Under the pieces are notes generated by a model. The model had not been told where the DNA came from. It made no database searches and saw nothing but the letters and a program-made list of their open reading frames with translations. A DNA stretch of 35,256 nucleotides, from the NCBI GenBank assembly GCA_020833025.1, contig JAJHRB010000008.1, positions 1-35,256 of the forward strand, written 5' to 3'. The DNA is from Thermoproteaceae archaeon. Lineage in GTDB: Archaea > Thermoproteota > Thermoprotei > Thermoproteales > Thermoproteaceae. Made by a program: the position numbers and the translations under genes. Position 1 is the stretch's first letter. Every line of letters starts with the position of its first letter. Shown here piece by piece: positions 12,297 to 14,069 of the stretch.

Positions 12297-13190
12297 TCAG
12301 TAGTACCAGGTCAAGAAGTGCGCGTGCTCCGGCGGGTACCTTGAGAGAGAGTGCGCCTTGCACGCCTGCCTGAAGGGACACGCGGCGCACCCCGGCGACG
12401 CACGCGTGCAGACCCTGCGCCCGAAGTTCCACAGGTAATCGTCGAGAGCGAAGGGGTGAGCTCCGGCGAGCTCCGCGACGAGCCTCCACGCCCTCTTGAC
12501 CAGCTCCCTCAGCCTCACGTCCTCCTCCAGCGAGACCTCGACGCCGCTCTCAAGAAAGTCGTAGTTTATGTCGACTATCCCAAGCCTGTAGGCAACTCTC
12601 GTCAGGTGGTTGTCGACCGGCACGTCGGCCTCGTCTGCGTCCTTGAATTCGGCCAGCCCCCTCCCGTCGAGAAACTTTGCGAGCAGCAGTGCCTTCTTGC
12701 CGACGGGATCCTCGTAGGCCCTCAGGCCCCTCAGCGCCTCCCTCAGCCTCTTGATGGAGTCGAGGGGGACCAGCCTCTCGAACCCGCCGGAGAGCAGCGC
12801 CTTCCTGCCCGCGTCGCGCAGTAGGAGGACTCTCGCATTAAAGTCCCACACTCTCCTCCCGCCAATTGACAGCAAGGCCTCGGCCTCGGCCGGCGTCATC
12901 CTGGCGAGCCTCTCTGCGGTGAAGAGCCCCTTGTCGTAAGCAATTCTCCCCAGCCTGTAAAGCGCGTCCGCTCCGTGGTAGAACTCGCCGTCTATCACCC
13001 CCTCGAACGGCTCCCAGAGGCCGGTCCTGTGGTCGATCGCGACCATCGCGACGAAGTACGCGAGCTGGCTCTCAAGCGGGTCGTCGGGCGGGGGGTAGAA
13101 GCGCTGGTCCGAGTAGCTCTCGCGCCTAATCTGCAGCCCCCTCACTGCGGCCGCGACCGCCTCGGCCCTGTCAACGTCTATTGCTGGCAT
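12297..13190 (-). CDS. HhH-GPD-type DNA glycosylase-like protein with C-terminal Fe-S motif
   Basis: VPVDNHLTRVAYRLGIV (VDxH-like) and CTRASPGCAACPFRQAC (C-x6-C-x2-C-x5-C). Leaderless: CATAAATTG (minus strand) about 25 nt upstream. Confidence 0.6.
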   Translation of the reverse strand: MPAIDVDRAEAVAAAVRGLQIRRESYSDQRFYPPPDDPLESQLAYFVAMVAIDHRTGLWEPFEGVIDGEFYHGADALYRLGRIAYDKGLFTAERLARMTPAEAEALLSIGGRRVWDFNARVLLLRDAGRKALLSGGFERLVPLDSIKRLREALRGLRAYEDPVGKKALLLAKFLDGRGLAEFKDADEADVPVDNHLTRVAYRLGIVDINYDFLESGVEVSLEEDVRLRELVKRAWRLVAELAGAHPFALDDYLWNFGRRVCTRASPGCAACPFRQACKAHSLSRYPPEHAHFLTWYY

Positions 13191-13274
13191 CGCGAGACTC
13201 GCTGAGACCCCAATTTATGGCCGGCAGCGCGGGGCCGCTAGGGGGCTGTCTCGGGACCCGCCGCGGCCCACCGC

Positions 13275-13302
13275 CGCTCTGACCGGGCTGAGCTACGGCG
13301 GC
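13275..13302 (-). tRNA. Orphan tRNA 5' module (acceptor 5' strand + D arm); possible split-tRNA 5' fragment or relic
   Basis: Minus strand GCCGCCG-TA-GCTC-AGCCCGGTCA-GAGC-G matches tRNA positions 1-26; promoter GGAAAGCTTATAAAG centred about 25 nt upstream; no T arm or CGGCGGC acceptor 3' strand downstream. Confidence 0.5.
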
Positions 13303-13321
13303 CAGGCTCCCCGGGAGGGGA

Positions 13322-13335
13322 ACTTTATAAGCTTT
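13322..13335 (-). promoter_or_regulatory. BRE/TATA-like promoter for the tRNA module
   Basis: Minus strand AAGCTTATAAAGT preceded by purine-rich GGAA; spacing to 13302 about 25 nt. The plus-strand reading also resembles a TATA box. Confidence 0.5.
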
Positions 13336-13382
13336 CCGCGCCTGCGGGCCAAGCGTTAAAAGGTGAGCGCGCGGCGCCGCGA

Positions 13383-14069
13383 GTGAACTGCACGCTCCTG
13401 GTAGTCGACCTGGACGGGACGCTGACTCTCAGCCGCAACACGTACGAGCTCTCCCTCGAGGCGCTCGCGGCACTGAGGCGCGCGAGAGATGCGGGCATCA
13501 GGATCGTGCTCGCCACGGCGAACGGCCTGGACTTCGCGCTCACGGTCGCGCGCTACCTTGGAATAAGGGACGTGATTGCAGAGAACGGCTGCTTCGTCTA
13601 CCTCGACGGCAAGGTCCACGAGCTGTGCTCGGGCGATATGAGCGGGGTCGACAGGGCCGTCCTCGCGACGGGCGCCGTGGCCCCGAGCCCGCAGAACAGG
13701 TGCAGGAGGTACGACCTGGCGTACATACCGCTGGCAAGCAACGCGCTGGAGAGGGTCAGGGCGGCCGTCGGGCCCGGCTACGTCGTTGAGTTCAGCGGCT
13801 ACGCAATTCACGTGAGGCCCGGGGGCGTTGACAAGGGCTACGCCGTGCTGTGGCTGTGCAAGAGGCTCGGGATTCCGTGCCACAAAGTCGCGGCGGTGGG
13901 CGACAGCGATGTTGACGCCGGCATGCTGAGAGTAGCGTGGGGCATAGCGGTGGGGAACGCCTCGCCGGCGGCCAAGAGCGCGGCGCGCGTCGTTGTCGAG
14001 GGGCCGAGCGGCATCGGATTCAGCGAGGCGGTCGACTTGATACTCTCAGGCGCCGCCTGCACTCCCTGA
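13383..14069 (+). CDS. Phosphoglycolate phosphatase (HAD superfamily, archaeal type)
   Basis: VVDLDGTLT, ATANG, GDSDVDAGML motifs; GTG start with GTTAAAAG box about 25 nt upstream. Confidence 0.85.
   Translation: MNCTLLVVDLDGTLTLSRNTYELSLEALAALRRARDAGIRIVLATANGLDFALTVARYLGIRDVIAENGCFVYLDGKVHELCSGDMSGVDRAVLATGAVAPSPQNRCRRYDLAYIPLASNALERVRAAVGPGYVVEFSGYAIHVRPGGVDKGYAVLWLCKRLGIPCHKVAAVGDSDVDAGMLRVAWGIAVGNASPAAKSAARVVVEGPSGIGFSEAVDLILSGAACTP

Follow-up and report, generated by a model that had tools for sequence, protein, structure and literature searches.

A Very Probable Split tRNA-Asn(GUU) Gene in a Draft Pyrobaculum Genome

A tRNA 5′ half in the window

The stretch of DNA analysed here (the window) is 35,256 nucleotides (nt) long and corresponds to contig JAJHRB010000008.1 (C20) of GenBank assembly GCA_020833025.1, a Pyrobaculum draft genome (G000) of 126 contigs that is 94% complete. 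Its minus strand carries, from 13302 to 13271, the sequence GCCGCCGTAGCTCAGCCCGGTCAGAGCGGCGG, which very probably represents the 5′ half of a split tRNA-Asn(GUU) gene whose 3′ half lies on another contig, C74. The original prediction had recognized a tRNA 5′ module with a D stem at this place, and the module is present: GCCGCCG-TA-GCTC-AGCCCGGTCA-GAGC-G runs from 13302 to 13276 on the minus strand. The limit then set at tRNA positions 1–26 was too short. Since the match reaches 13271 and includes GCGG (positions 27–30, a strand of the anticodon stem), the module comprises gene nucleotides 1–32, i.e., positions 1–30.

We searched this 32-nt exon against 41 related genomes. All 32 nt (13271–13302) agree with the beginning of tRNA-Asn(GUU) genes from relatives (E values from 4.5e-10 to 8.7e-10), a match well outside what chance would give, with identical copies in G010, G026, G002 and G034. 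Past the match, G002 and G034 continue with GCTGTTAACCCGTAGGTCCCGGGTTCAAATCCCGGCGGCGGC, that is, with tRNA-Asn(GUU); in the window the match ends after position 30 and TGGGCCGCGGCGGGTCCCGAGACAGCC follows. This end coincides with the 30/31 site at which several relatives have a cis intron. As originally noted, the remainder of the tRNA is missing downstream: ARAGORN found no tRNA over the window, and neither a 3′ exon nor an anticodon could be found in cis within it. An Rfam scan of the locus gave no family match at E ≤ 5. A guide RNA of the H/ACA or C/D type, judged by eye, was dropped as a candidate on account of the exact tRNA-Asn match.

Two further elements accompany the exon on the same strand. 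The predicted promoter, composed of a transcription factor B recognition element (BRE) and a TATA box (GGAAAGCTTATAAAG, 13323–13337), had been placed about 25 nt upstream and is found there, with the TATA part at roughly −29 to −21 relative to tRNA position 1; intact tRNAs of the same genome have similar boxes in front of them. On the other side lies a GC-rich 3′ tail (13244–13270). The hairpin GGGCCGC/GCGGCCC that had been proposed within this tail proved no better than in shuffled sequence (z ~0 in an 81-nt fold), and the relevant pairing is instead that of the tail with the leader of the 3′ half.

The 3′ half and the joined tRNA

A full-length tRNA-Asn query matched the draft genome in three segments: the window locus (13271–13302, gene nt 1–32), C74:5782–5797 (nt 33–48) and C74:5815–5845 (nt 48–78). 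The 3′ half (C74:5782–5845) starts at the nucleotide next after the end of the 5′ exon, ends with CGGCGGCGCCA and is preceded by GGCAGTCTCGGGACCCGTCGCGCTCGCCGAT, which is complementary to the window tail. A 3′ module ending in CGGCGGC behind a tail-complementary leader was what the original prediction had suggested looking for, and its finding bears out the idea of a split-tRNA fragment. The sequence CTGTTAACCCG occurs a single time in the genome, at C74:5783. Upstream of the 3′ half, CTTAAATAAATGTCTGCAGAGAGAGGCAGTCTCGGGACCCGTCGCGCTCGCCGAT comprises a TATA box and then a leader, in which GTCTCGGGACCCG is complementary to the tail of the 5′ half; judging by sequence, this TATA (CTTAAATAAA), located at the distance expected for the start of the leader, would provide the 3′ half with a promoter of its own.

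The longest Watson–Crick run between tail and leader is CGGGTCCCGAGAC, 13 nt without interruption (13248–13260 in the window), and flanking pairs extend it into a longer helix. The tail–leader duplex was calculated at −51.7 kcal/mol, compared with −42.8 kcal/mol for the best of 5,000 random 32-mers from the window. If the cleavage site is set at 30/31, the junction takes the form of a strict bulge–helix–bulge: exon CGGC (13276–13273) and leader GCCG form a 4-bp helix, flanked by 3-nt bulges at GG^U (13272–13270) and AU^G, and GGGC (13269–13266) pairs with GCUC in the leader-side helix. The predicted cuts coincide with the exact ends of the tRNA-Asn match. When the halves were joined and a small cis intron in the variable region was removed, ARAGORN reported a tRNA-Asn(gtt) of 78 nt with CCA. 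A search for the splicing endonuclease (PF01974) in the genome gave one strong match of 100 bits and a second, weak one of 19 bits, against a cut-off of 27 bits; a heterotetrameric (α2β2) enzyme would require two subunits of this type.

We propose that the BRE/TATA of the 5′ half would drive a short transcript made up of positions 1–30 and the GC-rich tail. The 3′ half would be transcribed from the TATA box on C74, as a leader complementary to that tail followed by the anticodon arm from position 31, the variable region with its small cis intron, the T arm, the acceptor strand and CCA. Pairing of the two RNAs would create a bulge–helix–bulge where the exons end, with GG^U and AU^G as the cleavage sites of the splicing endonuclease; positions 30 and 31 would then be sealed by a tRNA ligase. 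The product would be the tRNA-Asn of the cell, the only one found in this genome.

Some observations weigh against this proposal. Transcription, cleavage and ligation of the halves are all deduced from the DNA, and we found no T-run terminator after the tail of the 5′ half. A 13-nt run of complementarity to the tail also occurs in 65 of the 70,423 overlapping 45-mers of the window (the tail's own complement included); the run gains its weight through its location where the exon ends and through the matching of eight such pairs, described below. Finally, because the genome is a 94% complete draft in 126 contigs, an intact tRNA-Asn may lie in the missing part.

This last point touches on a different explanation, a relic, which the original prediction had already raised as an alternative: integration or rearrangement would have left a nonfunctional tRNA remnant at this locus, and the working tRNA-Asn would lie elsewhere. 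Integration often targets tRNA genes, and related archaea are reported to have partial tRNA fragments (PMC3218864). However, a search for a second tRNA-Asn-like gene found none in the 94% complete draft. The exon is identical to that of functional genes, its promoter boxes are intact, its partner has both the remainder of the tRNA and a matching leader, and eight pairs of this kind occur in the genome. The lack of any other tRNA-Asn in that search, together with the normal tRNA obtained on joining the halves, makes a relic extremely unlikely in our view.

Protein genes lie on either side of the half-gene. Directly 3′ of the tail there is a TATA-like box (CCATAAATT, 13212–13220, minus strand), which presumably serves the next gene, given a spacing of about 22 nt to the ATG. 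That gene (12297–13190, minus strand) forms no part of the tRNA; it encodes a possible DNA glycosylase of the AGOG/MutY type, with weak matches to Pfam AGOG (E 3e-4) and NCBIfam mutY (E 1e-5), both below the cut-off. On the opposite side, a gene for a HAD-type phosphoglycolate phosphatase (13383–14069, plus strand) is useful as a synteny marker: in G010, a contiguous tRNA-Asn stands divergently beside the ortholog of this gene, which suggests that the 5′ half still occupies the ancestral site and that the 3′ half was relocated. In the stretches compared, the genes of C74 gave no synteny match to those beside tRNA-Asn in relatives.

Split tRNAs elsewhere in the genome and in other archaea

Similarity searches yielded at least eight tail/leader pairs in the genome, a lower bound since the inventory is not exhaustive. 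Besides Asn (unbroken run of 13 nt), these are Lys(UUU), with both halves on C81, on opposite strands about 0.2 kb apart (9 nt); Lys(CUU), in tandem on C31 (9 nt); Arg(UCU), on C89 and C13 (13 nt); Trp(CCA), on C46 and C28 (14 nt); a CAU tRNA, either Ile2 or Met, on C100 and C13 (12 nt); Thr(GGU), in tandem on C74 (11 nt); and Thr(UGU), on C34 and C88 (10 nt). Pairing the tails with the leaders according to tRNA identity is the unique optimum among 40,320 permutations when complementary runs are scored; by summed energy, three permutations (identity matching counted among them) equal or beat it. Some individual bulge–helix–bulge motifs are relaxed, as at the Lys(CUU) junction, which does not pass a strict test of register.

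An unpaired 3′ half of Thr(CGU), on C91, may share the 5′ half on C34. The duplex of the C34 tail was computed at −50 kcal/mol with Thr(CGU), with a 7-nt run, and at −38 kcal/mol with Thr(UGU), with a 10-nt run. On C13 (6800–7500; L188), the 3′ halves of the CAU and Arg(UCU) tRNAs are divergent neighbours, possibly sharing a promoter region.

This inventory also bears on whether the two tRNA-Asn loci could be the ends of a single cis-spliced gene, interrupted by a gene-bearing intron of at least ~19 kb that begins on C20 and finishes on C74. The halves lie on different contigs, which the draft leaves unordered. The G000 Lys(CUU) and Thr(GGU) pairs are close tandems, each of which could be a gene with a long intron and a promoter inside it, and in Pyrobaculum sp. 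WP30 (see below) 3.75 kb separate the two parts of tRNA-Asn, which share a strand. On the other hand, a separate TATA stands before the 3′ half at the distance expected for the start of a leader, and downstream of the 5′ half comes a protein gene that likewise has a TATA-like box to itself. Moreover, cis splicing is impossible for the Lys(UUU) halves, which lie on opposite strands of C81, so this organism must trans-splice some of its tRNAs. A single long intron therefore seems to us very unlikely, and two separate genes remain by far the better description of the tRNA-Asn halves.

In related genomes the gene is often whole. We found a contiguous tRNA-Asn in G001, G002, G004, G006, G009, G010, G011, G012, G013, G015, G016 and G017, a tally that leaves out G003, G005, G007, G014 and G018; half of these 12 genes (G004, G009, G012, G015, G016 and G017) have a cis intron at 30/31. 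The occurrence of contiguous genes with an intron at the same site supports the derivation of split tRNAs from intron-bearing genes. Such noncanonical 30/31 introns of Pyrobaculum and Thermoproteus (e.g., in the tRNA-Asn of G004, G009 and G016) share the site and the bulge–helix–bulge type with the junction described here, but there the exons are contiguous in one gene, whereas in G000 they are separate genes.

The split tRNA-Asn is a known kind of gene in a new genus. To our knowledge, tRNA-Asn is a new isoacceptor among split tRNAs. The split tRNAs of Nanoarchaeum equitans and Caldivirga maquilingensis, the latter from the same order as G000, likewise have separately transcribed halves, GC-rich complementary leaders and a bulge–helix–bulge at the junction (PMC4390854, PMC4033280); they differ in genus, isoacceptor and split site (30/31 here). 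These two species have the most split tRNAs, six each, according to Chan 2011 (PMC3218864), and G000 appears to exceed either with at least eight. The recently split tRNA-Asp(GUC) of Aeropyrum and Thermosphaera and tRNA-Lys(CUU) of Staphylothermus also come from intron-bearing genes, have a promoter before the 3′ half and are intact in relatives, but the Asp genes are split at the canonical 37/38 site, in contrast to the 30/31 site and the many tRNAs affected in G000 (PMC3218864). The same study detected trans-spliced or permuted tRNAs in none of five Pyrobaculum species, and a 2014 review counted seven archaeal genomes with split tRNAs (PMC4033280). Our literature search, which left subscription papers outside its scope, returned no description of split tRNAs in WP30 or any other Pyrobaculum. 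The interest of the window half lies in its setting: its own genome has at least eight split tRNAs, and the tRNAs of a sister species seem to have received element insertions.

Inserts in the tRNA genes of Pyrobaculum sp. WP30

In Pyrobaculum sp. WP30 (G008), assembled as a single contig of 1.99 Mb (CP012158.1), the genes for tRNA-Asn, Lys(CUU) and Trp are broken at 30/31 by inserts of 3,754, 541 and 939 nt, respectively. The ends of each insert are complementary to each other (over 12, 12 and 10 nt in the same order), and each fits its own partner best. The Asn gene has the split site of the window with a different leader pair.

That splits of the same kind exist in a one-contig genome speaks against a misassembly in G000, in which a contiguous, intron-bearing tRNA-Asn would have been broken and misjoined onto two contigs. 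The G000 draft is fragmented, and repeats such as tRNAs can produce misjoins; yet both breaks would need to lie exactly at exon ends, and each would need to add a complementary flank bearing a promoter or a tail. We find an artefact barely credible.

The three WP30 inserts (L105:4945–8746, L181 and L207) are mutually homologous, with 74–89% identity in aligned blocks. At their left ends, the 5′-half tail is followed by a T-run, and a TATA region resembling AAAAACTTAAAAACACACAAAAACAAAG is common to their right ends. In the longest insert, a frame of 1,043 codons extends into the 3′ half of tRNA-Asn. The overlap lies at L105:4945–5000, where the TAG of CCCGTAG closes the frame, meaning that protein and tRNA exon share DNA.

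The central domain of the encoded protein has two conserved motifs resembling LAGLIDADG (QIGWRASDE and one like LLAWYLGDG). Its AlphaFold model has a pLDDT (predicted local distance difference test) of 80, and a Foldseek search with it retrieved mostly LAGLIDADG endonucleases, headed by the archaeal I-Tsp061I (best E 1.7e-3), with low TM-scores (template modeling scores). A Pfam search gave no family, which leaves an identification as paREP2 unsupported, and a sequence search of solved structures gave no match. The insert may be a mobile homing-type element. Related, near-full copies abut tRNA 3′ parts in a metagenome-assembled genome, G018 (L215:2580–2850 and L233).

These inserts, with their LAGLIDADG-like protein, suggest how split tRNAs may arise. 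It is conceivable, though in our estimation slightly short of probable, that the split tRNAs of Thermoproteaceae were born when a mobile element encoding a homing-endonuclease-like protein invaded the intron site of the anticodon arm. The left end of the element would give the 5′ half a stop, its right end would give the 3′ half a promoter and a leader, and the splicing endonuclease of the host would make the insertion a harmless trans-splice. Later, decay and rearrangement would leave the halves dispersed, with the window half as an example; young stages would be represented by WP30 and G018, and an old one by G000 with its at least eight split tRNAs. Around the G000 halves, blastn detected no remnants of the WP30 insert, so an origin from the element finds no support at the window itself. 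Given this and the differing leaders, the split in the window is probably independent of that in WP30, or much older.

A related idea, of mobile DNA scattering tRNA fragments, has been put forward for the tRNA-Thr of Caldiarchaeum, disrupted by an inserted element; the case appears to concern fragments and intron gain and no functional split tRNA, whereas the WP30 inserts lie inside three split tRNAs with paired complementary ends (PMC3293823). Sugahara 2012 describes direct evidence tying disrupted tRNAs to mobile elements as lacking, and WP30 adds sequence evidence of this direct kind. In G018, one copy of the insert is joined to a tRNA-Tyr before position 22, which suggests that the insert has other target sites as well.
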